Part shown: in pieces, positions 3,501 through 42,255 of the stretch | Layout: every line of letters starts with the position of its first letter | How positions within the stretch are numbered: position 1 is the first letter of the stretch | Assembly: GCF_025698545.1 (NCBI RefSeq) | Contig: NC_068569.1 | Span: forward strand, 15,004,001 to 15,068,000 | Direction of reading: 5' to 3' | Origin: Gossypium raimondii | Taxonomy: Eukaryota; Streptophyta; Magnoliopsida; Malvales; Malvaceae | DNA length: 64,000 nt | Position numbers and translations under genes: made by a program | The notes under the pieces: generated by a model | Told to the model about the DNA's origin: nothing | Databases searched by the model: none | What the model saw: only the letters and a program-made list of their open reading frames with translations

Positions 3501-6343
3501 AAAGAAAAAAGAAGAAAAGTGAACTGAGGGCAGGGACTAAAGAACAACAATAGAAATTACTCACATCAAGGCGCTGAACTTGAGTAAGATCTCCATGAAG
3601 CTCAGCTGCTTGAAGGCCAGCCAACTGAAATAAAATCTTCAACCTATGAGCAGCCTGCTTAGTTCCACTGCCAAATGAGAGGGAATATCATTTATAAAGT
3701 CATAGGGGCTTGCCCTGGTATCTAGGGGTGAGCTAAAACTGGTTGGTTCAAAAACCTGGTTATAAATTAAACTGAAACAAAAGAGAAAGAAATCATATTT
3801 TCTTTATTGAACCTAATTTTTTTTCTCAGAACAAGTGTAATGATTCATGAAATACAACACTACCCAAATATCTGAGTTTCCTAAATTCCCCATTTGTATA
3901 TAGTTAAATCAGCATGACCTTCTACATGTGTAATAATAACCTGAAGATAATCACTCTGGATGTGAAGGTCTTTGTACACAATGACAGAAGAACTGCTTCT
4001 TGATTTACTTCACGCATTCGGCGTATCCTTACAACCCTAATGAGAAATAAAAATAACATAGTCAACATAAAGAAAAGGGGAAACCAGCAAGCAAAATAGA
4101 ATGTGAACTTATATCAGAGATTACTCCTCGGTCAATGTTGATGGCCGTTTAGTTGATGAGTCAGCTGAGAGACGCAAGGGTCTGGTCAAAGAAAGCTTGA
4201 CAAGCTCATCAACTTCCTCTGTCATTGTAGCTGAAAACAGCATAGTCTGTCTCCTTTTAGGACAAAGGCGAACCTATACATGGTTGCATTAGATGAATAC
4301 AAATCCACCAAAATAAATTTCAATTCAACGCAGACAAACAGAGCAAGGAAGATTAGGAAGTGACTGTTTCAAAGATGGAAACCAGTTCTACTTTATCTCT
4401 TCGTACTACTACGTCATAAAAATTATACAAAATCCATCAAGTTGGCAAGTCATATAAAAATATTTCTGATAGGGAGGAGTACCAATTCATGAATTTCAGC
4501 ACTGAATCCGAGCTCCAGAAGACGATCTGCCTCATCAAGGATCAAAACTGCAAGATCATCCAAATCCACAGACATGGTATTGCGTAAATGATCTATCATG
4601 CGTCCAGGAGTAGCCACAACAATGTCAGGCATTAATCTCAAAGCTGTCTCTTGTGCCTATAAAGTTGACATAAAATAAAGGAAGACAACATAAGCATAGG
4701 AATGCACATATTGAAACAAAAGTTGTAACATCAGCTTCCAAATAAACAGACACACTAAGAAGCAAAGTAGATTCATTTGAAAAAAGAATACTTTTTATGT
4801 GTCATTCCAAAAGCATCAATGATAGAAGTTTCAGAAACCAGTCAATTGTTTAAGAAAATGGAAAAGGGTGATTACAGTCTTATTGCAATGAAATGAGTGG
4901 AATAACTTTAGACCAAGTTAAAGATAAAGAAACACTTAAAATGGAGTGCTGAAAGGATTGGAGATATAACTTTTTGCCAGTATAAAAAGTGAGCGCAAAT
5001 TAAACCAGCTAAGGATGGAAATCCATGGGTCAAACCTTTAATGAAAGCCCACCAACAATCAGACAGCATCTAATATCGGTATACTGGGCCAGTTTCTCTA
5101 TCATACTGTGAACCCTGCAACAAACGAAGGTAAAGTAAGATAACCGTAATGACTACCCAAAAGTACAAATTAAAGATATTTATAGTCAACACAACTTGAA
5201 GGATATAAAGACCAAATTGCCAAGCCTAACAAATATGTTCAACAAACCATCCAAGCGAGAAAATGCATAAACCAGCTCAATAGCTTATGATAACATAATC
5301 CAATTGTAAAAGAATATTAATTCTCTAACACTAAGCAAGGATGAAGAAAAAGCAAAACCCTGAATAAATTTGTGATAGAACCCAGAAAATGGTCAAAAGT
5401 ATTATGAGCACTTACTGAACGGCCAACTCTCTAGCTGGAGTAAGGATAAGTACCCGTATAGCTGAAACCCTTTTAGGACGAAATAACAGCCTTTCTAATG
5501 TAGGTAAGGCAAATGCAGCCGTCTGCATGAAGCGCAAATTTAAAGCAGTTAAGCACAAATTCAAATATTCAATCACATAATAAACGGCATAGAAAGATAT
5601 ACAAATTAAAAGAAATATACCTTCCCAGAACCAGTAATTGCGCTACCACATATATCGCGCCCAGTCAAGGCTAAGGGTATACAAGCAGCCTATAAGAGAA
5701 ATACCCAAAAAATTTCATTGAACAAAACTCGATTAATAAAACTAAAATATAAAAATCAGGAAGAATGGAGACCTGAATGGGCGTAGGCTTGGTGTAACCC
5801 AATGTTTCACAAGCACGAAGCAAAGGACGCGAAAGATTGAGCTCCATGAAAGAATTGGCATGAAACGACGCTCCTTCAGCTGGTGCAAAGAACGATTTAT
5901 TGTCTCTTGCATTGCTATTTTCCTCATCTTCATCTTCTGACCTATAATCAACCTGATATATATATATATATAAGAATTATTGATTCAGAAGAAAACAGAT
6001 TCGGAATTTATAATAAAAGAGCAAACTGATAAAGAAATACTTGTTTGTCGGATTCAGAATCGGAGGTCTCCTCCTGCTGAGCTGGAGCTGAGCTTTGTTG
6101 GAGGATTTTAGAGATTTTGAAGTCAACAGAGGTGGTACCACGGCGAGCGTGTTCTTCTGCGACGGATTCAGAGTAAGAAGCAAAGTCCCATGGAGATTGG
6201 GATTTGGGTTTTGGTTTGGAAGGTTTGTCTTCTGCTTCATCTCCTTCTTCTTCCTCCTCAGCTTCTTCATTATCTTCATCCTTCGATTCAGAGAGTTCGG
6301 GTTCTTCGTCGCTGGGGGCTTCGAACATGAAGCTTGGAGCCAT
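538..6343 (-). CDS. RH28: DEAD-box ATP-dependent RNA helicase 28-like (RH28/DRS1 type), 19 exons, 739 aa
   Basis: Nuclear/nucleolar ATP-dependent RNA helicase; the yeast relative Drs1 acts in large-ribosomal-subunit assembly (family knowledge). Exons from the start: 6343-6041, 5952-5773, 5689-5621, 5522-5416, 5114-5036, 4656-4483, 4273-4125, 4036-3941, 3667-3565, 3358-3296, 3077-3016, 2875-2779, 2417-2299, 2225-2183, 2069-1968, 1816-1718, 1641-1558, 1292-1018, 553-538. All junctions are GT-AG and the phases sum to 740 codons. Visible motifs: acidic N-terminus ([13 protein letters not shown]), Q motif ending at Q161, Walker A AITGSGKT (178-185), PTRELA, TPGR (262-265), DEAD (287-290), SAT (318-320), [16 protein letters not shown] (465-475), then a Lys/Arg-rich tail. 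The last exon has only 16 bases and restores the family-type ending SRYKRK; without it the frame would end SRYET. Start MAPSF was chosen by family resemblance; an in-frame ATG at 6421 would add 26 residues. Confidence 0.93.
5953..6040 (-). other. RH28 intron 1 with (TA)n tract
   Basis: Short first intron of the helicase gene. A (TA)n microsatellite (about 5955-5972) sits directly against the 3' splice site, replacing the usual pyrimidine-rich tract with alternating TA. Confidence 0.6.
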
Positions 6344-6521
6344 GGAGTTTGGATTCGGAGCAAGGGAGTTTGTGTTTTTCCCTGGAAGCAACTCTTCGAA
6401 AGGAGAATAGATGGAAACCAAAGACTGGCTCCACCAGGTGTCTGTATTCGCTTAAACCTAAACTCATAAACCCTAGAGACAAAAGCTAGTTTTTTTTTTT
6501 TAACTACATTAAACAGTGTAT

Positions 6522-6658
6522 AAATTTTCGTTTTCATCCTTTAGTTAAAAATTCATAAATTTCATTTAAATCACTGAATTATTCAAATATAAATTTTGTT
6601 TTCATTCTTTAATTAAAAATTCATAATTTTCATTTAAATTACTGAATTATTCAAAAGT
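6522..6658. repeat. Two-copy 69-bp tandem duplication upstream of RH28
   Basis: Two adjacent copies (6522-6590 and 6591-6658) begin AAATTTT(C)GTTTTCAT and run through TTTAAAT(C/T)ACTGAATTATTCAAA. They differ at only a few positions. They lie about 180 bp upstream of the helicase ATG, within its likely promoter or leader. Confidence 0.8.
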
Positions 6659-7260
6659 TTTTATTTAAATTACTAGACTCTTAAATCTTTTTTTAAATGT
6701 TTCACGAGTAGTCTCTAAGCAACGATTCGACAATCAGTATGATTGACGAGTAGAAGAACATACTTTAGATCCAAATTGATTTAATAATCAGTATCGGAGG
6801 TAAAAAAAACTGTTTGAATTTTTATTTGCATATTCGTGACGTCTAAAGCTATTTTATGAAAAAAAACCTTAATTATAAGAAAAAGGGAAAGAAAAGTTTC
6901 GATTGATGTAGTTGGTGCAAATAAAATAAATAATATAGTATCGATCTTAACAATCTATGACTAAAATAAAACTTTCGAATAATTTAATAACTAAATTGTA
7001 ATGTTTTTAATTGAATAACCAAAACGAAAAACTTAACAAATAATGGTAGCTTACTTTTTATTCTTTTAGGGTAAAAATAAATATGTTATTGTGTATTTTA
7101 TTAAAATTATATTAAATCAAATTATTTTTATTATTCATAATAGACATTATTTATGTTTATTTTAACTAAAAACCAATATTCATTTTGTCGTTTAAAAATA
7201 TAAAAGTATTTTAATTATTATTTAACTTGATTTTTTTGATAATTTATTGATTTAAATAAT
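6659..7260. other. AT-rich spacer, no gene seen
   Basis: AT-rich intergenic DNA upstream of the helicase. No open frame with family resemblance and no clear repeat boundary was seen. Confidence 0.6.
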
Positions 7261-16526: not shown

Positions 16527-18090
16527 TTATGAATAAAATCTAAAGAGGCAGATAAAAGAAATCGCTGAAGCCAACAATGTCGTATGGAGAACACCAGAAG
16601 AAAGAGTCCTGGAAGATTCTCCTGTAAGAAAATCTGGTAACCATGAACTATTGTCATCACTTGGAACCTGTCCTGTCCCTGTAATAGATCCATATGTTGT
16701 GTTTGCTGTGCCTGTTGTTGGGCTTGTACTGCTTGCAGATTTTTGACTGTAGAAAACAAAATTACAGTGAAAAGATAGAGAAAATATTAGAGAACATAGA
16801 ATTTGAACCTAAATGGAGCTTTTAAAAATTACAGCAATGAAATAGTTGAAAAGGAGATTCTGTTCTGATACAAATGGAACAAAGTTGTATTTATTTTAAT
16901 ACTCCTTTTTTTCATGGGTTCTAATATATCAATCAGAAAAGTATTTCACAATAAATTTATACACTAAAAAAGTGACTCGTTTTGGACATAATATTGCTAA
17001 ACAATTGACAGCAAGATCCTTAATGTATGCCACAAGCTAATGGCAATGACTAAATGACTCATGACCTGTAAACTTGTGCTTTACAGAAGGAAATTTAAGG
17101 CTTAGAAAAAAAATGGTATGAAAGCAACTATAGAACACACTTTCAGATTCAATGAGAATCTCACCCCCAACTACAACGCCGATAAAGTTTTGTAATGTTT
17201 TTAAAATAACTTCAACTTAAAAATATGATAATTAAAAGAAAAATAGAAATAATGGAATATTTCTAAGTCGATAGTGCTTACCTTGTTGATGAAGGGCAGA
17301 ACGTAATCGTATAGTCAGCGCCGGTACATGTAAACGTACTCGTAGCATCATCATACGCGTAGCTATACGACCTTGGGCAAGCCGCTTTGAACATCCCCGC
17401 ATAAACAGACGGTTTACAGGTGTCCGGGGTGGCGTAGGCGCCGCTGCAGCAGTACTCGGGAGTCCCAAAAGCTTCGCATGCACTCTTACAGGCCTCACCG
17501 GAACCGACCCTTAACTCCGCCGGGCACTGCCGGTTCAAGTCATTGACGCACCCTGTTGACAAGCAGGAGCCTGAACCACCACTTGGCTCCACGATCATTG
17601 GCAAGTTGTAGCCGTCAACTAAGCTAACGTCGTAGAAATCCTGTGTGCCTGACCCGATCGTGAACTCTGCTAAGGTGGCTGGGGGACTTGCACCTTTGCC
17701 ATTGCATTCGATTTGGTTTGAGCCACAGTCACCGGTTTGGCAGGTGAGTTGACCAGTATTTTGGTCCGATGCGCAACCTGATCTTCCCCAGAACCTACCT
17801 GACCAACCAGACGGTGCCTGAAACGGCCTGGACCCTCCAGACGGTAGCTCAAACCCGGTGCTACCTAAGTCGGAGTTGCCAAGGATACCAGGCCAAACTG
17901 TGTGGTCACATTTATTCACCAGTGTAAATGTAGTCCCTGAAATCCCTGCGTATATGTGTATATATGCAGACTGTGTTAATATTACGGCCGCTAATATTGA
18001 TTCTATGTTATATAAACATGGAATGTTGAAAATGTTACCTGGGAAGAGGGAGCTCAGACATAATAAACCAATGGAGAAAATCAGATCCAT
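16527..18090 (-). CDS. Thaumatin-like protein with GPI-type C-terminal tail, 3 exons, 311 aa
   Basis: Secreted thaumatin-fold (PR-5-like) protein; family members are linked to defence or wall roles, and the C-terminal tail here suggests plasma-membrane anchoring. Exons: 18090-18039, 17945-17282, 16746-16527; GT-AG junctions and phases agree (312 codons). Exon 1 gives the signal peptide (MDLIFSIGLLCLSSLFPG). Exon 2 carries the thaumatin domain from TTFTLVNKC, with the signature GQLTCQTGDCG, FYDVSLVDGYNLPM and a Cys-rich end YCCSGAYATPDTCKP. Read-through of the exon 2 donor gives an immediate stop (STR*), which makes exon 2 look terminal. Spliced, it continues STSQKSASSTSP..., a Ser/Thr-rich linker ending in hydrophobic LLASAISFICLF, as in GPI-anchored thaumatin-like proteins. 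It shares its exon plan with the gene at 39828-42255. The GPI anchor is inferred. Confidence 0.9.
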
Positions 18091-18375
18091 CTGTAATGAA
18101 AATTTGAGGGTACAACTAAATACTTAAATTTCACTACGCCAAAAAAAAGGGGCGGGTGAATGCTGATGAAAAGATTATACCTTTCTCTTAGGAAGAAAAG
18201 GTTGCATTTCCAGTGTGATGATAATCAGTGGAAGGGAAAATGAAATAAAGGGTTGGTTTAATGGTGTTGTTTGGGGATCATCACCTGAAACAGTGGTGGT
18301 GATTTTTCATATATCCCAAAAAGAAATGGGTTAAGTTTGAGGTCTCTTATGAGATGATGAAAGGAAAAAAAATTC

Positions 18376-18392: not shown

Positions 18393-18944
18393 ATGGATAA
18401 TATTATATTTGATAATAGGGTAGAAAGTGGAATAAAATCTACTGTTATACAAGGACAAAATGATCGACCACGTTAATTTTGGTAGAGTTTCTAAAAAGTT
18501 GATATTTTCCATAAAAAAAGAGAGTATATTTCGGTATTTATTTCTGTAATTCAAAGCAAAATTTATTAGTACTAAGATTTTAACCATTCTAAGTGACGAA
18601 TATTTTTGACCAAATACCAAACGTTGAATAAAGTAATGAATTTATTTGGTGCAACTAAACTCTGGCAGTAAAGGTCTTCGTGGCCGGGCGATCCATCCGG
18701 CCCGGTCAACTCAGCCCAATTTAAGTTGAATTTAATCTTCAAATTTTCAATTTCGATTCCATCCGAATAAATTTTAAAAATTATTTTATGTTAATAACTA
18801 ATATATTTTTGTAACTAATTTGTTAACAAATGGTTAATTTTATAACAGTGAAATAAAGTAAGCAGGTTGAGAATTTTTTTTTATCTTAGTCTTTAGTTTT
18901 TTATATGATGCCTAGAATTATTCATAATCCCTCTCTAATTCTTA

Positions 18945-19045
18945 AATAAGAAGATAATACGTTTTAGTGCACTTAAATCCACGTCCTCTTACACTGGCAA
19001 TAATGTCGATGCCAACTGAGTTAAGACTCAATCGGCATTTGTTTT
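18945..19045. repeat. Dispersed repeat, second copy at 35533-35635
   Basis: Both copies contain GATAATAC-TT--AG-(G)CAC, then TCCTCTTAC/TTCTCTTAT followed by CAATAATG/CAACAATG, and then GAG(T/C)TAAGACTCAATC, in the same orientation. They are diverged but clearly share the order of motifs. Likely a fragment of an old retroelement; the family was not identified. Confidence 0.6.
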
Positions 19046-24200: not shown

Positions 24201-25934
24201 CCATTCTTTTTATATAATTTTAAAATCTTCATTTTATTACCTATATTTTTCTTAGTTGTTGATTGAATATATCTAACTATTACATGTTAGTTATAAAACT
24301 AAACTTAAATTTTAATTGGTACATAACTCTAATATTAATTATGTGATAGTTAAGATGATTAGAATTCTATTCAAATAATATCTCTATTTTACATTAATAA
24401 AATTAATTAATTATCACAATTTTTTCTATAATTATGCTTAATTAAAGTTCTATTTAAATAATAAATATTTTTAAAAATTAGCACATTTCTTTAACTAATC
24501 ATTATAAATTATAATTATAATTATTATAATTATTCAATCTTTTTCTATATTTTATGATTAGTGTTCTATTCAAGTAATAAATTTATTTTAAAATTAGCAC
24601 AATTTTTTAACTAATAAGTCTAAATTAAATTATAATTATTTTTAAAGTTAATTTAGTAATATGATAGAAAATAAAGGATATTATGCCAATTCAAAAGTCT
24701 TTCCAAACTCGTGTTTTATATATATTATTTAATGAAATATTTTTATTTCTTATAATTGAAGATGTATTGTTTTAACACTTATTACGAGTTTGAATAAAGT
24801 TAAAAGAATAATTTTATCTTAAAATTTTATATAAATTAAAGATTGAATTTCAATAAATCAATATTATTTTGATAATTGAGATTTGAGTGTGATTTAATTT
24901 TGATGTTTAGCATAAATAAAATTAATTATGATTATAATATATTAAAATTATTGAATTAATTATTAATTTTAAAACATAATTTCAATTTTTAGTTTTAGTT
25001 TTAATATTAAAACTATTTTCTAACATTTTATATTTTAAATTTTTTCTATTTAAAATAAAATAACAATGTCATTAATTAGAAAGTAAATTAAATTTGTATA
25101 AAATATAATTAAATTAAACTTTATAACTCTTGTTCAGTTTTATAGTGTCAAATCTTAATTTTAATTGGTATATAACTATAATATTAATTTAAATGATAAT
25201 TTTATGCTCTAATTAAGTGACAATTAGTATTAAATAATAAGTATAATTCAGTATGAATACAAAGTCTAATTAAATTATAATAACTATAGCATAAGGAAAA
25301 CATTATTAATAAAATAAATGAAATTGTAGTTATTTTATATTTTATATTGATAATTTGTTATCGAAAATCAAAGTAAAACTCATATAATAGTTTTATATCA
25401 ATATTGATAATAATTAAAGACATTATTAATAAACAATTAAAATTACAATTAATTGGTTTTATAGATTTAAAAACTATGAAAGATATAAGTAACACAATAT
25501 ATTAATTTCTTAATTGAACTTTTTTAGATTAATTTTTTTAAATAGATTTGAGTCAAGTTATTTATATGAATGAAACCGATTGAATTTGGTTGAATTCATA
25601 TTTACCAATAATTCTTTTCATATAATTATAAAATATAGAAATAAGTATAAAATATATTTAGTTTAAAGCATATTATCAATATATTACTATTATTTTTATA
25701 TAATGTTTATCTAAAGCATTTAATTTCTATGAATTATGAAGAATTTTGATAACATGATTTAATTATTATGGTATTTAAAATAAATTTCGATTTATAGATA
25801 AAATTAGATTGATTTAATTACAAATAAGCTTTTATTATTTTTTAATTTATCAAAATATATTCAATTAATTTATAAATTTAAAATTTTTATTAATTTATAA
25901 TATATATGATGTTTTTTTACACTACAACATATTT

Positions 25935-26088
25935 TTAGCGGCGTTTTTACAGCGTTTTTACATGCGCCACAAAAAAACGCTGCTAAATTTTGCGGCATTT
26001 ACGTGGAAAAACGCCGCTATAAAACATGATCTTTAACGGCGCTTTTCCCACAAATGCCACTATAGAACATGGCCTTTAGCGGGGTTTT
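25935..26088. repeat. Left subterminal repeats of the CACTA element
   Basis: Inverted and direct copies of GCGGCG(T/C)TTTT and AAACGC(C/T)GCTA alternate here. The array is cut at 26089/26090, where the gypsy element begins. Confidence 0.8.
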
Positions 26089-26404
26089 TTGTAGCACCCT
26101 TAGCCCGAATCCGACGCCGGAACAAGGTTACGGAGATTAAACAAACAACTCATCTACAATTCACATTTAAATCAATAACCATTCAAATTCATTCATATAG
26201 TCCCTAATACGATCCCTCGAGGCCCAAAATAAACATTAAAAATGGTTCGGGACTAAACCGAGTACTCAAGAACTTTTTCGAAAAACATGTAAAATTTTCA
26301 AAGGTACAGGGGACACAAACCCATGTGGCCAGGCTGTGTGGGCATTTGAAATGAGGCCACACGCCCGTGTCCTTTCCTGTGTCCTCGCCCGTGTCCAAAC
26401 TAGT

Positions 26405-28835
26405 GAGCATACCTTTTAGCTTGCAAGTCATTATCACATTTCTAAGCCTCGCAGATTTGCTAAAGAAACATCGGTTTAACTTTTAACTCAGCTAATATCG
26501 ATTCATCATCTAACAAAGTCAATCAAGTACTCATCGATCTCAAGGCAAATAAGGATTTTCTACTCAAAGCATCTGCAACTACATTCGCTTTACCCGGATG
26601 ATAATTAATAATTAGTTAATAATCTTTCAACAGTTCGAGCCATCTTCGCTATCTTAAATTTAGATATTTTTGTGACATCAAATACTTCAAACTCTTGTGA
26701 TCAGTAAATATGTGGCATTTCTCACCGAACAAATGGTGTTGCCAAATCTTTAAAGCAAACACAATTGCGGCCAACTCCAAGTCGTGTGTCAGATAATTCT
26801 TTTCATGCGGCTTTAACTGTCTGGAAGCATAAGCTATCATTTTGTCTTCTTGCATTAAAACACAACCCAAACCGCTCAATGACACATCACTAAAAATTAC
26901 AAATTCTTTACCCGACTCAGGCAGAACTAAAATTGGTGCTTCGGTTAACAGTGCTTTCAACTGATTAAAACTTTGTTGGCATTTTCAGACCACTCAAACT
27001 TTACATCTTTCTGCAATAATCGAGTCATCGATGTAGCTATCATCGAGAATCCTTTTACAAATTTCTGCTAATAGCCAGCTAATCCCAGAAAACTTTTGAC
27101 TTCGGATATGTTTCTTGGTGGTTTCCAGTCAACAATTGCTGAAATCTTGCTCGGATCAACTCTGAGGCCTTCCGCCGAAAAAAAGTGTCCCAAAAACCTA
27201 ACTTCTCAGAGCCAAAACTCACACTTGCTAAATTTAGCAAACAGTTGTTATCTCACAAGTTTGTAACACAATTCTTAAATGCTGGGTATGCTCAGACTCA
27301 TCTAGGAATAAATAAAGATATCATCAATGAATACAACAACAAATCTGTCCAAATACGGTCTAAAATTTTGATTCATCAAACCTATGAATACTGCAGGAGC
27401 GTTAGTTAACCAAAATGGTATAACAAGAAATTCATAGTGCCCGTACCTGGTTCTGAACGCAGTTTTCGGCACATTCGAATCTTTAACCCGCAACTGATAA
27501 TAACTAGAATGTAAATCAATATTTAAGAATATTGTTGCACCTTTCAGCTGATCAAATAAATCATCAATTCGTAACAATGGGTACTTATTCTTGATCGTAA
27601 CTTTATTGAGCTGACGATAGTCAATACACAATCTCATTGAACCATCTTTCTTTTTAACGAATAAAACTAGTGTACCCCAAGGCGAGAAACTCGGCCATGC
27701 AAAACCTTTATCTGTTAACTCTTGCAACTGAGGTTTCAACTCTTTCAACTCTGTAGGAGCCATTCTGTACGGAGCTATCAATATCGGTGATGTTCCCAGT
27801 ACTAATTCAATAGCAAACTCAACCTCTCTAATCGGTGGTAACCCGAGTAACTCTTCTGGAAACACATTTGGATATTCACAAACTTCTAGCACTAATTCAA
27901 TCTTCGATTCAGACACTTTAGTATCCAATACATATGCAAGGTAAGCATCGCATCCTTTTCTCACATACTTTTGCGCTAACATAGTCGATATCACAATAGG
28001 CAACCCACTCAAATCATTGGATTCAATACAAAGAGTTTCATCATTTTGACATTTCAATACAATAAGCCTTCGTCTACAATTTATAATCACATCATGAAAA
28101 GTCAGCCAATCCATACCCAAAATCACATCGAATTCATCAAACGGTAAAAGCATCAAATCGGCCAAAAACTGTAACCCCGAGTCATCAAAAGACAATTCTT
28201 GCAAACATTATCAATTTCGACATACTGACTTAAAGGGTTTGACACTTTAACCACGAATTCAATGTACTCAACAGGTAAACTCTTACTAGACACTAAACTC
28301 GTACACACATAAAAATGGGTTGATCCGGGATCAATCAAAACAGTTACATTAGCGTTAAAAAGAGAAAAAGTACCAGTGATAATATCTGGTGCAGATGCAT
28401 CTTTGCGAGTGCGAATATTATAAGCTCTGGCTGGCGTCCATGCCTCAGATCTCATTGCAGAATCTCTCGTTGCACCTTGACTACCACTAATATTTTTGGT
28501 ATTTCAGGGTGGTCTCCCTCTAGCAGCTGTATTGTTCGACCTCGCAGTTTGTGCTTTTTCTTTCTCAGACTTCTCAGGGCAATCTCTAAGATAGTGGTCG
28601 AAGGAACCACAACTGAAACATGCTCCGCTTTTCACTTGACACTCGCCATAATGTGGCCTGTTGCAGTATTTGCACTCGGGTCTAGCATTTCTAACACTAC
28701 CCACACTCGCTACAAATATAACCTGGGGTTTAGGATTGGAGTGTCATACATCTCTATCTCTATTAGAATGCCCCGCAGGCACAGTAGGACGGTAGTGATA
28801 TTCTTTAGATTTCTTCGATGTTGACTGATAAGACT
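26405..28835 (-). pseudogene. Ty3/gypsy pol relic: zinc knuckle, protease, reverse transcriptase, RNase H; no integrase
   Basis: In minus-strand order: a zinc knuckle (CKYCNRPHYGEC / CFSCGSFDHYLRDC, 28704-28504); a protease with LIDPGSTHFYVC (28455-28153) and GMDWL; a reverse transcriptase from IELVLGTSP to FIDDIFIYS (to 27302), carrying the gypsy-type F-x-DD catalytic box; then RNase H with [14 protein letters not shown] and [11 protein letters not shown] (26960-26649) and the HPGKANVVADALSRK-type linker (to about 26560). Frameshifts and stops separate the parts. The integrase that should follow is absent; sequence passes into LTR near 26405. It is not functional. Confidence 0.88.
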
Positions 28836-28837
28836 TT

Positions 28838-31453
28838 TGTGATAGCCCGAAATAGGGCCTAATCAGAATAGTAGTTTTGTAACCACAAATCCGAAGTGAA
28901 ATAGTTTAATTTTATAAAGTTTTATTAATTTTCGATTGATTGAAATATTGTGTGAAAATATGGATAGGAAATTTTAATGATTTAGTGCCTGATTGAATTT
29001 TTAGGACTAAATTGAGAAAAATGCAAAGTGTGTCTAATTAGTGATTAAATGACTTAATTGAATTATTGCATGTAATTGGAAGTGTTTATGTGGCAATTAG
29101 ACCATAAATTAGTGATATGGACACAAAAGGGTAATTCTAGAAAAAAATATCTAAGTAATGGGTCAAGGGCATTTTTGTCCAAAATGAGAAAAAAGACAAA
29201 ATAAAGAGAAAATAAGTGTCCATCTTCTTCAAAATCAGAAGTTTGCTGCCAAAAAAATTCATGTCACCATAGCTAGGGTTCTTGATCTTTCTAAGCTCAA
29301 TTGTAAGTGATTTCTTGCCCCGTTTTTAATTATTTTCATATTTTTATGCTTATTGATGCTTGAATTTCATGTTTCTACCATTTAATTTAAATGAAGCTAA
29401 AGTTTAAAAATTGACCCATTCATGATATAATTGTAAATTGATTAGTGATGCTAGATAATGAATGTTTGAAGTGTTAATTACAAGTTTTACTAGATGAATT
29501 TCGATGAAAATGTTGAAAAAGGACTAAATTGTGAAGGATGGTAAAGTGTGCATAAAGTTGTGATTTTGTGAAATTGAGGGCTATTATGAGCATGAAATAT
29601 GATTTAGTAAAGTTTGAAATTTAAGAATTTAGTGAATTTTATTTTTACGAGCTTTGGGACAAAAGTGGAATTTTTGAAAAGTTATAGGGAAAAATGTAAA
29701 TTTGCCAACATGTTGTGTATGAATTGTATTTGAATGGAATATTGATAAAATGTATTAAATTGTGTTAATATAGATCAAGAAAGAAGAAATAGTGGAAGTG
29801 ATCGGGGAAAAGAGAAAGTTATCGACTAAATTACAAAAATAGTCGTTTTGCATCCGAGGTAAGTTACGTGTAAATAATAGTTATATTTTTATAAATTGTG
29901 AATTATATTTGATATGTTAATTAATATTGAATGTGGAAGGAAAATTATTCATGAATTATTTAAGTGATAAAGTGTTTAAAATAAAGTGTTAAGTGTAAAT
30001 TCTCGGTTGAACTTAGGAATAGAAGTGGATACAAGTGACATGTCACTAGAGATCAGTGTTACAGTGTTACAGTGAGTCCTGGGTGCTGGGTGATCTAGCA
30101 TGTGTTGCAGACACCTGACAGCTTGTGTGAGCAGGCCCGTGGACATTTCCAGTGTTATTGATCAGTGGTAGCTTCGGCTACATATCAGTGGTAGCTTCGG
30201 CTACATTTCAGTGGTAGCTTCGACTACATATCAGTGTGACACTTATGTGCTAAATCTCTACGTATCTGTGTATATTCCGAGTGTTCAACGGGATTAATAA
30301 TGAATTAAAGTGAATATGAAATGAAGTGTGTATGCAGGTACGTTTTAAAAGAATGAGCAGATGTGATAAATGTTAAGTGCATGAGTGCATGTGCAAGTGA
30401 AATGGGTAAGATTATGCATGTGTAAATGATTGAAATTGCTAAGAAATGTTTGATTAGTTGTATGAGAGAAATGTCAATTATTAAATGAGTACTTATTGTT
30501 TACATGTAACTTACTAAGCTAATTGTAGCTTACACCTTTCTTTCTTTCCTTTGTTTTATAGTGATTTAAGCTTGCTCGAATTTGGGATCGTCGGTGCTCG
30601 TATCACACTATCATAACCATCTCGGTATTATGTGTTTTCAGAATGTTTAAAACTATGGCATGTATAGAGTTTTAATCATTTTGAGTATGTTCATATGATA
30701 TGGCTAAGATTAGCTATTGAAATGGTTAGTAAAGATTATGTTTTGGTGTTATATACGTGTAAATGGTAGTTAATACAAAGAAACAGTTTCTTTGACAGCA
30801 GCAGTGACGTGAATGTGAAAAATCACCATAAATAGTAGAAATGGAATTAGAGAGTGAATGATATATAGAATTAAATATTATCAAGTCTATTTTACATGAA
30901 AGAAACGTCATAGGCAAAGGAATTTTATATTCTGATATATTTTAACTTTAGTGTGACAGGGTCAGAATGGTTTTGAAGTCCCCTGTTTTGAGTTTAGAAA
31001 ATCATTATAAATTTCACAGAAAGAATTATAGGTCATAATTTATATTTCTAAATTCCTTAGTGAGTCTATTTTAAAAATAAATAAATTTTAACCTTATATG
31101 AATTTTGTACAATGAGATAATTGATTTTTAGTGCAAAGAGGTCAGAACTGTCAAGTAGTGAAACAGGGGACACTTCAATGAATAAACTGTACTAATTGGC
31201 TATACCAAAAATTCTAAAAATTTTATGGTAAGAAGGTATATGAGTCTAGTTTCATGAAAAATTTACGGATTTAAATTTTGAGTTTTTTAACTCAATATAT
31301 AATTAAATTGGTGACAGTCGCACAGATGGACAGTTTTGCTGTGAACAGTGAATTTAATTTTAAAAGCAAATTTTTATGCTCCGAATTGGTAAGTTAAGTT
31401 GGATAACATCTCGTACTTGATTCCGACGATGGTCTTGGGTAAGGAGTGTTACA
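28838..31453 (+). mobile_element. 2.6-kb solo LTR inserted in the gypsy gag
   Basis: The sequence begins TGTGATAGCCCG and ends GTGTTACA, so it has TG...CA ends, with no internal coding region. It splits the gypsy gag: minus-strand reading resumes sensibly across it, with a Lys/Arg/Ser-rich linker between the gag core (31905-31651) and the zinc knuckle. Flanks ACTTT (28833-28837) and AATTT (31454-31458) fit a 5-bp target duplication with one substitution. Length and lack of internal domains point to a solo LTR formed by LTR-LTR recombination. Orientation is arbitrary without coding sequence. Confidence 0.75.
30163..30240. repeat. Three-copy ~25-bp tandem repeat in the solo LTR
   Basis: The unit ATCAGTGGTAGCTTCGGCTAC occurs three times in a row (the last copy has GACTAC). 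Just upstream there is a short GTGTTACA duplication (about 30057-30072). Confidence 0.85.
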
Positions 31454-31459
31454 AATTTC

Positions 31460-31905
31460 TCGTAAATCTCTTTCTCGAATCTCTATCTTCAAATTCAGCT
31501 TTTCTCTTTTCTTTACTAAGTTCTCGACTTTGTGTGCTCTGCCGACTAACATAACAAACTCTTTCAGTTCAAGTATTCCAACTAAAAGCTAATGTCTTCA
31601 TTCAACTCATCTTCAAAACATTTGCACATAACCACTTCAGTTGGAATGCACTAACGGGCATACTTGCTTAATTTGACAAGCTCTCTTTCATATTCAGATA
31701 TGGTCATACGACCCTGTTTCAGCTCTAGAAATTCTTTACACTTTTGATCGAGGAATCGTTGACTTATATACTTTTTTCTGAATTCTATCTGAAAGAATTC
31801 CCATGTAACACGTTTCCTAGGTAATACAGAAATTAAAGTGCTCCACCACTGGTATGCAGCATTTTTCAGAAGAGATACAGCACATTTAACCATGGCATGA
31901 CACAC
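31460..31905 (-). pseudogene. Ty3/gypsy gag fragment
   Basis: Minus-strand reading contains NAAYQWWSTL, WEFFQIEFRKKYIS and FLELKQGRMTISEYERELVKLSKYAR, typical of the plant retrotransposon gag core. It is truncated at the N-terminal side, where LTR-like sequence abuts near 31905, and is interrupted on the other side by the solo LTR. A nonfunctional relic. Confidence 0.85.
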
Positions 31906-32479
31906 GCCCGTGTCTCTACCCGTGTGGATAAAAATAGGTCATTTTTCAAGCCATATTTCCCACCCAAATTGGTACCAACCTACACACATCAATTTGCATA
32001 TAACCATGGCATAAATAGGCATTCAATACCAACCAATATCAAGTTTATAACATGTAATATCAACACATACAACATGATTTCCACAAGCACTTCAATTAAC
32101 CACATATACTTAAGCAATCTATGTATCTCAACACATACTTAAATGGTCAAATACTTACATGCATCATTGTGCCTAAACATATCATGCATACCACTTATCA
32201 ATCTCAATCATTTGGTACCCAAAATACCAATTCACAAACAAGGCATTCACATGACAACCATACATCATATACAATAAAGTTATTTACATATTTACATAAT
32301 AAAATATACTAACTTCAAGCCAAATCAAATGGCTAAATACACAATAAAACATAAAGGCCTCCAATAGCCAAAAAGACATATACATGCTATTTAACCCAAA
32401 AAGACATATACACGCATGTAAATTAAAGTTAACATTACTTTGAATTTCTGCAGGTTCGTAAGTTGTATTCGGAACATTC

Positions 32480-32990
32480 GAAGATCCAATAGCAGTCTGT
32501 TGTTCATTATTTGTTTCTTCCGATTTTGGAGGATTTTGAACAGTACTTAGATATCACAATCTTCTTCTAGGTATTTTATCTGCAATATACATAAAATAGT
32601 TGAAATTTTAGTAACTAATAACAACAATAATAGTACATATAAAATAGTTGAAATATTTAACAAGATCAAGATTTAAATTATAATATTACATATAATTAAA
32701 AAATCGTAAAATCTTACTACATCATAATTCATAAATATCTTCATCCACATCCTGGCGAACCCATTGAAATTGTGTACTAGTACTAGGGATAGTTTCATTT
32801 AAGCTTTGTTCTGAAAAATGTAAAGTTTCTGATCTTTCGTCGATGCCATCTCTACTTCCATTGCCCATGTCAAACAAGTCTCTAGGGGTGTTACGGAGTA
32901 CAACATACAAACCCTAATAAGTTGGATCTTTCGAGTAAAAAACTTGTTTCATTTGAGAAGAAAATACATACGTCTCATCTATTAACTGTT
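32480..32990 (-). pseudogene. CACTA transposase (TNP2-type, DUF4216 region) relic
   Basis: The minus strand reads TYVFSSQMKQVFYSKDPTY, one in-frame stop, then GLYVVLRNTPRDLFDMG, followed by WVRQDVDEDIYEL. The arrangement 'QVFYSKDP...W-VVL...PRDLFDMG' is the pattern of the region after the catalytic domain in TNP2/En-Spm-type proteins. The remainder of the transposase is missing, perhaps removed by the retroelement insertion. The position and minus orientation fit the enclosing CACTA element. Confidence 0.7.
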
Positions 32991-33214
32991 GTCTAGTGTG
33001 AATTCATCGAGAGAAGTTCACCATTGTAAAACCAAATTGATATTTTTTAATTTTGTGAGCAGTATTAACATCAGCCCAATCACATCGAATATACAAATAA
33101 TATTAATTTTAGTTACAAATATTATACAAATAGTAACAAATAGGGAATTGAGTTTGACAATATCATTTTTATAATTTCATGAAATGGCAAAGCATGCAAA
33201 AATTGGAAACTGTC

Positions 33215-34100
33215 TTACCTGAGACAATGTGGATTGAAGCTAAGCAAACTGGATGGCAGATAACAGAAAACTAGATGGCAGAAAACTGGATGATAAAAAA
33301 CTGGATGGCAAATCTAAAGTAAGTAAAATGATCCAATATTTGAAAGAAAAATCAGCAATACAAGACTAATAGCAAAATAAAACTCCAAACAGGTTTAACT
33401 ACTATCATTTGGTCGAGGCTAAAGTTCGAGTTTCCTTTATCAGGCATTGTTAACATTCATTTTTGACCTTAGCAAAGCAGCCAATGAAGAACCGATTCCA
33501 GGGTCCCCTAGCTAATAGTCATGCAATTCTAACCAATTTTAAACTTGTGTGTTTTAAATCACTATCACAAACAAAAGAAAATTTCAAATCAAAGCTGTCA
33601 CCACCAAGAAACCAAATCAATGAAATAAACAAAAGTAATACAAGACTAATGAAACAATAAAAAATTTCACAAACATATCTATATGTTGCTATTTTAATCA
33701 CATAAAAAACTAAATAAGTGATCTGAAAACCAGTTACGCCAAAGTTATCACCACAACCAGCATAATAACACAATGTACTTAATTGAAACTTCAATGAAAA
33801 TCCAGAATTCAGATAAGAAAATTAAAAACAAAGAAAGAAATGAAGCATAATTGTCTTACTTGAGACAATGTGGATTAAAGCTAAGCAAACACACCAAAAA
33901 GCTATCTTTTCAATGTCAAAAGCAACTAAAATAGAAGAACAATGACAAAATCAGAAAAGAAAGGACTTCTAAATGCAATAAACAAGAAAACTGGATGGCA
34001 GATAATAGATAACAGTGTAAATTACTGGAGACTAAAGTTTCAAAGTTCCAAACAGATTTAACTACTATCATTTGGTTGAGACTAAAGTTTTAAATTTTGA
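33215..34100. repeat. ~640-bp-spaced direct duplication inside the CACTA element
   Basis: GAGACAATGTGGATT(G/A)AAGCTAAGCAAAC occurs at about 33230 and again near 33870. CCAAACAG(G/A)TTTAACTACTATCATTTGGT occurs at about 33387 and again near 34047. The two segments are in the same order and orientation. The intervening sequence also has several AACTGGATGGCA copies (33250-33310 and about 33990). Confidence 0.75.
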
Positions 34101-34156
34101 AAATTACAGTAAATATATATAAATCGAAATCAATATAATATAGAAAAAAGAAAAAC

Positions 34157-34425
34157 CTGAGATCGTGCTCTCTGAAGTTCTTGTTCAAGTTAAGTTAGCT
34201 TTATTCTACTCGACTCTAGTTGTTGAACATATGCCTGTTTAAACATATATATATATATATGCATCAGTTTATATGTTATAGACACGTAAGTAAGAAACTA
34301 CACGCAAATGTATGTGTTTATTTCAGTGTATATATGTCTTTTTTATGTTACATTCTTTCTAAGACGGCTTTTCTTTGCAGCTTCTCTGTTTTGAGCTAAA
34401 CGCCTCAATTGTTTTCACGTTGAGA
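34157..34425 (-). pseudogene. TGA-class bZIP transcription factor fragment captured by the CACTA element
   Basis: Two exon-like blocks on the minus strand. The first (about 34425-34352) reads LRRLAQNREAAKKSRLRKN, the basic DNA-binding region of TGA factors, and is followed by a GT donor-like site. The second (34234-34157) follows an AG acceptor and reads AYVQQLESSRIKLT, a stop, then LEQELQRARSQ, the leucine-zipper start, again ending at a GT. The intron position between the two matches the RLRKK/AYVQQL junction expected in plant TGA genes. The in-frame stop, the absence of further exons and the location inside a transposon argue for a dead gene capture. Confidence 0.85.
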
Positions 34426-34834
34426 CTTAATGAACTAATCTGGACAAAAAAAACGTTACAATCCCTAAAAGCTATTACCAAACTAAGGCTAAAAAATAAA
34501 TTAAGCCCATGGACAACAATGAATTTATGGAAAAGAAGCAATAATCAACTACTAATCTATTTTCCTACTAACAATCATATCGTTTATAAAATTCATAATT
34601 ATAAAATTCATAAAATTCATTCCAACCCACGCAAAAAATTCCGTTTTCCTTCCCATTACTGTAAAAGTGATTTCACTAAACTATAGTTTTTTTTTTCGTC
34701 TATATCTAAGAAAATCTAATTTATACATTTTTTCTCTAAAACAACATTGAAGAATGTTAGAAGAGAATTAAAAGCGACGACAGAGGAGTGAAATTTATTG
34801 ATTGGTTGCGGCAAAGGAGTGCGACGGTGACGCA

Positions 34835-34925
34835 GCAGAGGGGACAGTCAACGGTAACACAATAGATGGTCGAGTCGACGGTGATGCAGCAGATAGTCGG
34901 GTTGACGGCAATGCAACAGATGGGT
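34835..34925. repeat. Degenerate ~27-bp minisatellite in the CACTA element
   Basis: Three units of the form GTC(G/A)A(G)-TCAACGG(T/C)-A-GCA-CAGATG are arranged head to tail. The copies are imperfect; the unit boundary was judged by eye. Confidence 0.55.
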
Positions 34926-35049
34926 TGGGATTTTGATTTGGGGAAAATTTAGGGATTAGGGAAATTTTTTAGGGGGAAAAAATAAGGTGTATCATGTATA
35001 TGGGTTGGGATAAAATGGAGGAGAGCAAAACGACGTAATTTCGTTTAAA

Positions 35050-35250
35050 ACAAAATGACCGTTTGCAGCGTCTTTTACCTAACGCTGCTAATGCTCGATC
35101 CATTGCAGTGTTGTTCACCTAGCATTGTTAATGCCACTAAAAACGGCGCCGTTTTGTTTAAAGTAAAATGTTTTTTTGCGGTCTTTTTTATTAAAAACGC
35201 CGCTATTGCTTACCTTTTGCGGCATTTTTATCATAAATGCCACTAATGCC
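35050..35250. repeat. Internal block of CACTA subterminal repeats
   Basis: Repeated GC(A/G)GCG(T)CTTTT / AACGC(T/C)GCTA(A)TGC motifs and GGCGCCGTTTTGTTTAAA palindromic sequence. It resembles the right-end array (36968-37195), about 1.9 kb inside it, which suggests either a long bipartite subterminal region or an older nested copy. Confidence 0.7.
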
Positions 35251-35819
35251 TTTGATACTAATAAATATTTATGGTTTAATTATTTCTTAAATTCCTTTAA
35301 ATTAAGTTTGTTTTGTTTCAAACAGTATATTTAATTTGTAAAATTTTATAATTGTGTACGAAAATAATTTTAAAAAGTGAAACCAAACTTCCTTACAAAG
35401 AGTTTGTATCCACGAGTTTAATTTTTTGTGCAACTGATAGAATTTATCCAATTTGATTTTGATAAAATTCAACTTCTCAAATTCTTTTTTGATATTATGT
35501 CTACAACTACTCATAATTCATTCCCAACTCATAAACAGGAGGATAATACATTTCAGCACACTCAAACTCATGTTCTCTTATATTGACAACAATGCTCACA
35601 CTAATTGAGCTAAGACTCAATCTGCTTAACTTCTCAAATTCTAAATTACCAAGAGGTGGATTTTTATATGCAGAACTGCGGGAATAATGAATTTCTCTCT
35701 CCTTTTTACTTATATAAGCTTTTGATATTAATTTAATAATATATATTACAAGGTACACAAGTAATTAAAAAAATAATTTTATTGCTTACCTAAACCTTAA
35801 AATAAATTGATTTTTTTGT

Positions 35820-35965
35820 CATTTTTATCAAAATCCCTAAACCCTAAAACATAAACAATGAATCCTAAACCCTAAAATCCTAAAACATAAACCTTAAACC
35901 ATAAACATTAAACACCAAACACCAAACACTAAAACATAAACACTAATCCCTAAACCCAAAAACAC
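35820..35965. repeat. Degenerate telomere-like (CCCTAAA) tract
   Basis: Many CCTAAACCCTAAA-, CCTAAAACATAAA- and CCAAACACTAAA-type units occur in a row. A second short block lies at about 36222-36272 (AAACCCTAAACCTTAAACATTAAA). Being inside the CACTA element, it is interstitial and not a chromosome end. Confidence 0.7.
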
Positions 35966-36967
35966 TAAACCATGAACATTATGTAAGAGAAGCAATTTTG
36001 GTTTGAATGGCAAGAGTACTTTTTCATTGCTTTGCATTACAAATAAATACAAGTGTTTAACTAGGTGTTTGATATAGAATACAACAGTGGTTTGAATCTT
36101 TCAAACTATTCAAAAAATAAACAAATCTAATCCTAACTTATTTGAATTAAAAACAAGAAACAAGCCATGTCAGCTAGGTGAGGAAGTTGACGTGGATTGA
36201 GTCAGTTGCTTAACACATTAAAACCCTAAACCTTAAACATTAAATCTTAAACCTTAAACCCTAAAATAAAATGATTTTTTGCCACTATTGCTTACCTTTT
36301 GCGACGTTTTTCTCATAAACACCGCTAATGCTTGAGTTTTTTACATTTTTTATATTGAATTATTATATCTTTCATATCAGTTTTAAATAAATAATTTTTG
36401 AAAATTTAAGTAATATTTAAAAGAATTAGATAAATTTTGAAATTTTATATAATTTTTATGCAAGAAAACAAAAACAAAACAAAAATTTTAAAATATGAAA
36501 AAAAGCTTTAGAAAAAAATTCTCTTTGTAACTATATATTCTTTCAATATTTTAGGAAATGTAAATAATTTTTCAATTTACTAATTAATTTTGTTTCTCTA
36601 TAGAAGCATGGGTTAGTAATTTTTTAATTTTAATATATATAAAGTTTATCTATTATCTCTTAAATAATTTAAACTATAATGATAATTTTAATATATTAAA
36701 ATTAATATTATCTCTTTACAATTATATAAGAAATTATTTAATATATAATTAAAATAATCAATCATATACCCAAAAATTTTAAAATTATTTTAAATAATAG
36801 TATTTTATTTTTTCATTTTTAACATATATTTTTCTATGTTTTTACTTTCAAATTTTTTCTACGTATCATTAATTTTTTCTGAAGATTTTAAATATTCAAT
36901 TAAAAATAAATTATATTTTAATTAATATAAAGAAACTAGTTAAATAATAAATAGATAGGAAGCAAAA

Positions 36968-37195
36968 AGGCGCCGTTTTTGTTTAAAATAAAATGTTTTT
37001 TACGACGTTTTTCTCATAAATGCCTCTACTGCTTGACCTTTTGCGGTGTTTTTCTCACAAACACCGCTACTGCTTGACCTTTTGGGGCGTTTTTCTAATA
37101 AACGCCGCTATAGCTCTAACCTTTTATAGTGTTTTCCTATTAGTGCCACTAATGTATAACTTTTACGGCGTTTTTGGTCCAAACGCCACTAAAAA
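36968..37195. repeat. Right subterminal repeats of the CACTA element
   Basis: At least six spaced units of (T)GCG(G/A)(C/T)GTTTTTCT...AAA(C/T)GCC(G/A)CTA run up to the right terminus. They mirror the left array, as expected for this superfamily. Confidence 0.85.
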
Positions 37196-37341
37196 CCTGT
37201 TTTGCTGTAGTGTTAGTAGAACATTTAAATGGTATGACCAAGTTAATTACCACATTAATATATTATCAAATTAATTAATAGTTAATGAATTTTATATTTG
37301 TTATTATCACATAAAAATTATTAATATATATTTTTTAATTT

Positions 37342-39827: not shown

Positions 39828-42255
39828 CTATATGGCCTCTAATATGGATGAAGTTAGTGAAATAGGCCATGACCACCAAAACGCCATAAACAATGTTATG
39901 CCGACGAACACGTGGGTGCACGTGGACGGTGATGCTGCATTTTCATTCAAGGCACCTTCGTAGACCATTGTGCTGTTTATAAGAGGTGACGTTGGCGTTG
40001 TTGTTGTTGTGGGTTCCCCGTTTTCCCCTTTTGATGATTTCTGGCTGCAAATTTACGTGCCAAAACAAAACGTTAGAAACATTGCAAATTAGAAGGAAAA
40101 AAAAAAAGAACTCTGGGTCAGAGTAAAATATATTGAAAAACCCTTGGAATTGAAGCATTTATTTTGAGTATTACAATAATAGAATATTGATGATAGGCGT
40201 GCACTGCTCAGTCTTGCTCTTGAGATTGGTATCAAAAAGCGATGCCTACAGGCTATAATAAATTAAAATGTAACGGTAATAATGCCTATCGGGAGATGAA
40301 GAGGGATTGATGCATTAAAATTCAGCTAGAACGCCTAAAATGTCCATTCCACGGCCACCCTACCTAGCAAATCAAGGAGGCAGCCATACAGCGACTCTTC
40401 ACTTTTTAAGGTTATTTTACCCATTTGACCCCCAAAAAAACAATATTTTCAAAAATAACTCTGATTAGAAAAAATTCACTCAAATAATTTGAAATAAACA
40501 GTAAAATTGAATTATGAGAAGTAGATGATCGACACCACTATTTTTTTCTATTAAAAAAATAACTTTTGTGGTTTTAGACACTAGATGGCCAGCATTTATG
40601 TATTTTTTTTCAAATTTTTTTGTGCTAACACATTAATGGTCGACACCTGATTAAATTTTTTTTAAGATGCATACTGGCCAACAAATAGCCAAAATCACCC
40701 AGCAAATGATATTAAGAATATTGCAACATAATCTCTCCTTGTTTTCTCATCTTTTTTATTTCTCATGTTTAATTATATATTTTATATCTTAAAACAATAT
40801 TGAGTTACCTATCATGTTTTTTAATTATTATTGCATCACTCATATCATTATTTAATATATTTTAAATTAATTTTAAATTTAATAATAATGTGAGTGATGC
40901 AATAATACTTAAAAATATGATAAATATTTTAATATTATTTTAAAATATAAAATATGTAATTAACTTTAGAAAATAAAAAAAATAAGAAAATAAAGAGGGA
41001 TTACATTACAATATTCTCAATCTCTTTTGTTGGGTAATTTTGGTCATTTGTTGGCTAGCACTACACCCTTAAAAATTATTTTTTAATTAGATAAAAAAAT
41101 ATCGACGATCAATATATCAGCATCCTAAATTTTTTTTTTAAAAAAATACATGATTGCGGGCTATCTAATTCTCATAACCCAATTTTACAGCCTACATGGA
41201 ACGCCAACTTTCACATTTATTATTTACTGCCATTGGGGATAGAACCTTTTTTTCATGATAAAAATTACCCTTTGACGTTAAACTTGCGAAAAAGTTGGAA
41301 AAGGTTGGTAAAGTCCACCAACAAAAAAGAAAAAAAAACAGTTTGGTAAAGTAAATTACCTGGTGTTAGGCGAAGGGCAGAAAGTAATCGTGTAATCAGC
41401 ATTGGCACATGTGAAAGTACTGGTTTTATCATCGTAGGCATAGCTGTAGGCGAGAGGGCAAGCTGTCTTAAAGATCTTCGAGTACGAAGAAGGCTTGCAG
41501 GTGTCTGGTGTTGCATACGCGCCGTTGCAACAGTACTGAGGCTGGCGGAAGGCCTCGCAAGCACTCTTGCAAGCGACGCCGTCTCCGCCGTCTGCGCTCA
41601 TCACCCTGAGATCTGAAGGACACGAGTCATTAAGATCCACCGCGCAGCCGGTGTAGGTACAATTCGGCCCTGTGCCACCCTGAGGAACTACTAACATAGG
41701 GACGTTATAACCATCCACCAAGCTCACATCGAAAAAATCGAGTCCGCCAGCGCCATCTAAAGTAAATTCAGCCAAAGTGGCAGGCGGAGTAGCGCCATTC
41801 CCCGAACATTCGAACTTGCCGGAGCCACAATCGCCGGTCAAACATGAAAATTTACCGGTGGAATCTTGGGAGCAATGGGTTCTACCCCAAAAACGACCAC
41901 CCCATGATGTCGGTGCGGCAATGGTCTTGGTTTCACCTCTTTGGAGAGTGAAACCTGTAGTGGGAAGCGGTGGAACACCTGCGTTTGTGAGAATTCCAGG
42001 CCATACAACATAGTCGCATTTGTTTACTACGGTAAAGGTTGTTGCTTGTACACCTGTTTACAATGCAGCGAAAAATCTAAATTTATAAGAAAAACCCAAA
42101 CTAGAATCCAAATCTCGATGTTTAACAATAGAATTGATTAAATATGTTTGAATGTTTCCCAAATCAGTACCTGATATGACCGAATGTGATAGAATAAGAA
42201 CAAAAATCGAAGCAATAAATGTAAGTTGGGCCATGAAGTTTGCAAGGAAAACCAT
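39828..42255 (-). CDS. Thaumatin-like protein with GPI-type tail encoded by a remote last exon, 3 exons, 331 aa
   Basis: Paralogue of the gene at 16527-18090. Exons: 42255-42171, 42053-41360, 40044-39828; phases close at 332 codons. Exon 1 encodes the signal peptide (MVFLANFMAQLTFIASIF...); a second ATG at 42234 is an alternative start. Exon 2 has the thaumatin domain (FTVVNKCDYVVWPG, signature GKFSCLTGDCG, FFDVSLVDGYNVPM, YCCNGAYATPDTCKP) and ends ITFCPSPNT. As in the paralogue, failure to splice gives an immediate stop (NTR*). The third exon, 1.3 kb away, starts in the right phase with SQKSSKGE, matching the paralogue's SQKSAS, then Thr-rich TTTTTPTS and a hydrophobic end VFVGITLFMAFWW, typical of a GPI signal. 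Anchoring is inferred; family roles are in defence and cell wall. Confidence 0.86.
40505..41190. mobile_element. ~690-bp foldback (hairpin) element inside intron 2 of the second thaumatin-like gene
   Basis: The sequence folds on a centre near 40865. Left arm motifs, for example GAGAAGTAGAT, CATACTGGCCAACAAATAGCC, ATTGCAACATAATCTCTCC and TTATTGCATCACTCA, recur in order in the reverse complement of the right arm (GAGAATTAGAT, TGCTAGCCAACAAATGACC, ATTGTAATGTAATCCCTC, TTATTGCATCACTCA). Arms are about 330 bp each and moderately diverged. No target duplication was read with confidence, so the class is left open (MITE-like). Confidence 0.8.

Follow-up and report, generated by a model that had tools for sequence, protein, structure and literature searches.

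A fragment of a TGA-type bZIP gene carried by a CACTA transposon family in Gossypium raimondii

Within the 64,000-nucleotide stretch of Gossypium raimondii DNA that was analysed (C5:15004001–15068000, hereafter the window) lies a short block of TGA-type bZIP coding sequence, which we consider with high confidence to be host DNA captured by a transposon of the CACTA (En/Spm) type, multiplied by transposition and now decaying. A TGA-like fragment that includes intron sequence sits between the flanks of one transposon family at three loci, namely the window and two further CACTA copies found to carry the fragment, one at C9:29.119 Mb (L009) and one at C7:28.894 Mb (L010). The features of the window are collected in Table 1.

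Table 1. Features in and around the CACTA element, in window positions
Feature	Position	Strand	Remarks
Left target-site duplication	25917–25919		TTA
CACTA element, 11,293 bp	25920–37212		Ends CACTACAACA... and ...TGCTGTAGTG; GCGGCGTTTTT-type subterminal repeats
Decayed Ty3/gypsy retrotransposon pieces nested in the element	26649–31938	-	Pfam RNase H, reverse transcriptase, protease, gag
Start of the ORF-like region (MPRRRLRALS... in L010)	32410–32635	-	92% to L010; this piece without Pfam match
Element body left of the cargo	33514–34107		81% to the independent family copy L027
Start of the donor's next intron	34107–34156	-	End set by eye; break crossed by a small deletion seen only in the window
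Captured TGA exon B (zipper start)	34157–34234	-	Interrupted by one stop codon; AG and GT retained at the borders
Captured intron, 117 bp	34235–34351	-	GT–AG; aligns with the donor intron
Captured TGA exon A (basic region)	34352–34409	-	Last codon Lys to Asn; own 5′ border lost
Second patch	34407–34583		81% to a single other site (C12:52.9417 Mb); common to L009; about 3 bp overlap with the TGA block
Segment common to the C9 copy, C13 (11.138 Mb) and C4 (9.275 Mb)	34605–34795		
Element body right of the cargo	34791–35031		GTCGACGGTGATGCAGCAG-type repeats; 74% to L045
Right arm	36287–37194		84% to the C7 element L010
Right target-site duplication	37213–37215		TTA

The coding block consists of two exons on the minus strand, recognised beforehand in a reading of the letters made without database searches (the sequence-only reading) as the basic region and the zipper start of a TGA protein, and both translate as quoted there: exon A gives LRRLAQNREAAKKSRLRKN, and exon B gives AYVQQLESSRIKLT*LEQELQRARSQ, with AG preceding and GT following. 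The GT–AG intron that had been proposed between them is indeed present and aligned with the donor intron. The same reading had put the whole feature at 34157–34425; here the exons were placed correctly, but the capture extends past these limits, with BLAST support over 34133–34409 and, by eye, a continuation to about 34107. The 33-residue peptide joined from exons A and B has a match at 8.3e-9 to Pfam bZIP_1 that passes the curated cut-off. A TGA bZIP query matched 34100–34450 with 58.9 bits in tblastn; among 500 dinucleotide shuffles of that stretch, 7 gave any match to the same query, the top score being 19.2 bits. Since donor sequence ends at 34409, exon A has lost its 5′ border, and together with the changed last codon of that exon and the stop codon in exon B this makes a protein product from the window copy, a shortened and decayed version of the cargo, unlikely. 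A frameshift before exon A was considered as decay and rejected, being the junction with the patch that matches C12.

The exons lie inside CACTA ends flanked by a TTA duplication, as had also been claimed from the letters. There are 947 CACTA/TAGTG pairs 1–20 kb apart in the window, 25 of which have identical 3-bp flanks, and a single one of these 25, the TTA-flanked pair at 25920–37212, has 3 or fewer mismatches in 13 at its ends; it is the sole well-paired, flank-matched segment in the 64 kb. The terminal inverted repeats begin with CACTA (CACTACAACA and CACTACAGCA, with 3 mismatches in 13), and GCGGCGTTTTT-type subterminal repeats are present at both ends. The element is composite, with decayed pieces of a Ty3/gypsy retrotransposon inside it, and self-BLAST of the window found no second long terminal repeat for this nested retrotransposon, so that the history of the window copy is resolved in part only. 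The body to the left of the cargo (33200–34107) has long matches in L027, L028 and L039, which are independent copies. The sequence-only reading had allowed that the enclosing termini might belong to different elements; L027, L028 and L039 carry the surrounding body independently, which argues against this, and because they do so, and because four relatives have the flanks without TGA sequence, the TGA block is part of the element and not of the locus. Within the window element, stretches of the body occur twice (33208–33426 against 33849–34089, 42–43 bp at 93%), with a 15-bp tandem repeat beside them at 33264–33310, and a 140-bp part of the right arm (35486–35625) matches 18897–19036 outside the element at 73%, probably as another dispersed repeat. 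The element lies between two minus-strand thaumatin-like genes (17278–18123 and 41356–42057; Pfam 9.3e-81 and 8e-86), and the stretch between these genes is rich in transposons.

The fullest copy of the cargo is that of L010, a compact element of 4.7 kb (positions 2509–7224 of its locus) with AGT on both sides, as judged by eye. Its right terminal base is altered, and this end is supported by L028, which keeps an intact right end (...CCTGTAGTG) with nearly identical terminal sequence. About 890 bp of donor-like sequence, aligned in two pieces to the donor locus L011 (L010 5109–5996 against L011 4968–4036 reversed, at 89% and 85%), hold three recognisable donor exons and the introns between them, with stop codons of their own. 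L009 carries a shorter version of the cargo, as in the window; the element ends of this C9 copy were looked for and not found, and ends with target-site duplications were found for two of the three loaded loci (the window and L010). A search with the L010 cargo (43 matches; 40 of 147 candidates scored) again led to the three loaded copies and the donor, and to two more TGA-like genes; the loaded copies number at least three, counted among the best 40 of those 147.

A search for the donor, made with 34100–34450 against the 750.8-Mb assembly (281 contigs; the listed loci include C1–C13, of 48–63 Mb), gave nine matches, the block itself included, and all nine candidates were scored. A match was found in L011 at C7:38.186 Mb, which on its similarity to the block is the likely donor of the captured TGA fragment. 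Between the 10-kb L011 locus and the window element the match is confined to 34133–34409 (87%), and identity of L011 to captured sequence is 87–89% with introns counted in. L011 holds an intact bZIP exon pair. Upstream of the pair is a stretch ending EKQLDAK, which we take to be an exon, and downstream there is coding sequence with a DOG1 domain (2.3e-30). The top PDB matches of the L011 peptide are TGA7 and TGA3. Because of the exon pair and the DOG1 stretch we regard L011 as a TGA-type gene, an assignment read from coding stretches and not from a full gene model; its RARSQ ending presumably resembles those of TGA9 and TGA10. TGA-like bZIP exons are also present at L012, L013, L014 and L016.

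Intron sequence common to the donor and to the three element copies indicates that the capture was of genomic DNA, as the sequence-only reading had held, and not of a processed (cDNA) copy. The latter is scarcely credible: it could draw on the 85–95 bp or so of donor, further upstream (around L011 4142–4226), that are absent from L010, but no exon borders are identifiable at this missing stretch, and introns stand between the captured exons, two of them in L010 and one in the window and L009. It is also very improbable that the exons are local host sequence, as they would be if a resident TGA pseudogene had been the target of a CACTA insertion. The window copy taken alone could fit such a history, but the block and its left flank recur together at C9:29.119 Mb and C7:28.894 Mb, and in the window and in L010 the block has element body to either side.

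Capture of genomic DNA by the element would have taken place once, since the left break, next to AAGTGTC, is exactly common to L009 and L010, and intron sequence absent from the donor is common to the window, L009 and L010; in the window copy that break is spanned by a small deletion, with the same sequence on either side. In the shared block the K2P distances are 0.054 (window–L009), 0.049 (window–L010) and 0.066 (L009–L010), and those of the three copies to the donor are 0.086, 0.098 and 0.104. Donor sequence stops at 34409 in the window and L009 and is followed by the C12-like patch, where L010 keeps donor sequence; the ancestor of the window copy and L009 would later have exchanged about 590 bp of cargo for DNA matching C12. 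The candidate sources of cargo DNA are the C7 TGA gene and the place at C12:52.94 Mb, the second of these as a match only. The segment at 34605–34795 is probably family sequence and not from a third donor, which was set aside as adjoining family sequence is likewise present at the C13 place. Of the copies, the window and L010 have the stop codon of exon B, whereas L009, like the donor, lacks it. This pattern conflicts with the sharing of the C12 patch by the window and L009, and could be accounted for by a parallel C-to-T change or by gene conversion.

Downstream of its cargo L010 has three ORF-like pieces in order on the minus strand, the first of which is kept in the window. Two of the three are without Pfam match and the third matches Transposase_24 (plant En/Spm) with an E value of 0.026, below the cut-off, and we tentatively take the ORF-like region to be transposase-related. 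The TGA exons lie upstream of it on the same strand. Family sequence between '...GGAGCTAAATTTGAC' and 'ACAAACAAACGG...' would have given way to the cargo, probably through template switching during gap repair or through aberrant excision of neighbouring elements. Gap repair is one of the routes proposed for such capture. Another is tandem insertion followed by aberrant excision, as put forward in the available parts of two papers (PMC8903248, PMC13317346). Both routes are compatible with the observed breaks, and we make no choice between them.

Transcription from the right end of the element would yield the exons in sense, and chimeric spliced RNAs or the production of siRNAs could follow. Captured sequences are treated as siRNA reservoirs in maize Helitrons, Pack-MULEs and Sirevirus elements, in the available portion of one account (PMC13317346), and this would be in keeping with the idea that the fragment is retained for small RNAs acting on TGA genes, or for shielding the element from silencing, an idea that we nonetheless think improbable. 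L010 shares 313 of 857 21-mers with the donor locus, but the window block shares just 14 of 257, and the exons of all three copies differ from the donor in amino acids. For L009 the count in the donor locus is 34 of 258, and of the 257 21-mers of the window block 14 occur in L012, 8 in L013 and none in L014 and L016. Judged by such shared words, the case for a small-RNA effect of the window copy on TGA genes is weak, and if there is any effect on these genes L010 would be the better candidate.

Gene capture by CACTA elements is already known; new here is this TGA-carrying element, with the putative slot that it shares with its relatives as the most interesting feature. The closest known element is Tgm-Express1, a soybean CACTA element which, in the accessible parts of its description, carries fragments of several unrelated host genes, exons and introns included (PMC1947982). 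It is alike in this and in its kept splice sites. Its site is an intron of an expressed gene, with splicing of its exons into transcripts, whereas the window element lies between the two thaumatin-like genes. Pack-CACTA and Pack-TYPE elements, as far as the excerpts of two papers go (PMC8903248, PMC13317346), are similar in having CACTACAA-type ends, host DNA that sometimes comes from several loci, and few copies, but the carrier here retains an ORF-like region of its own, and the window element is 11.3 kb long with a nested retrotransposon. The traits of Pack-CACTA and Tgm-Express elements that are found here are a host fragment inside the ends with its likely donor elsewhere, and cargo multiplied by transposition, at three loci. 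Among the titles and abstract openings of the literature on CACTA and Pack-CACTA elements in cotton we found no published description of the window element, and a survey of TGA genes in ten cotton species mentions transposons once, in general terms, in its available part (PMC12564017).

Fourteen loci (L027–L040) were compared for what lies at the cargo site. L027, L028, L029 and L030 have both cargo flanks, with 625–953 bp between them and no TGA sequence; the donor gene itself is L032, the left flank and slot sequence are present in L031, L039 is matched more weakly on either side, and at seven loci (L033–L038 and L040) the left flank alone matched, a flank that holds a dispersed repeat. The slot contents of L027–L030 are partly common to one another, and much of the slot is thus family sequence. 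The slot of L030 (1790–2440; C6:27.15 Mb) has an alcohol-dehydrogenase-like last exon after an AG border, oriented opposite to the ORF-like region of the element, which matches residues 342–377 of the 379 of a plant class-P alcohol dehydrogenase in the PDB at 4e-10 (with X at the internal stop), so that a different host-like exon lies between the same flanks. Comparison of these copies suggests that the cargo site may be prone to capture. We hold as possible, though rather doubtful, the wider proposal that the family has a cargo slot, that is, a fixed interval upstream of the ORF-like region in which siblings carry different host fragments, with cargo partly exchanged and flanks constant.

CACTA elements of Chenopodium carry captured transcription-factor and other fragments in the 5′ region upstream of the coding sequence, and their authors suggest that capture happens readily in some CACTA regions, according to the available sections of that work (PMC8978399). 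The captured fragments occupy the same relative place as here; the donors are other, and here copies with different contents and the same flanks are comparable within one genome. The present case adds the capture of a transcription-factor gene in cotton and offers a comparison for that suggestion. The likely donor occurs in one genome together with three loaded copies and with four whose slots are otherwise filled, and the sequence of events in a transposon gene capture, its breaks and its decay are readable directly from donor and copies; if the proposal of a cargo slot is true, the family would be a natural capture series, with its mechanism readable break by break. On the minus strand the slot of L029 reads SLCINGRKITSNAQRDLDQVAGRIAGNLEKI, which may be a coding fragment, and a similar interrupted reading is found in L028 (around 2120–2200), with shared DNA in L031.
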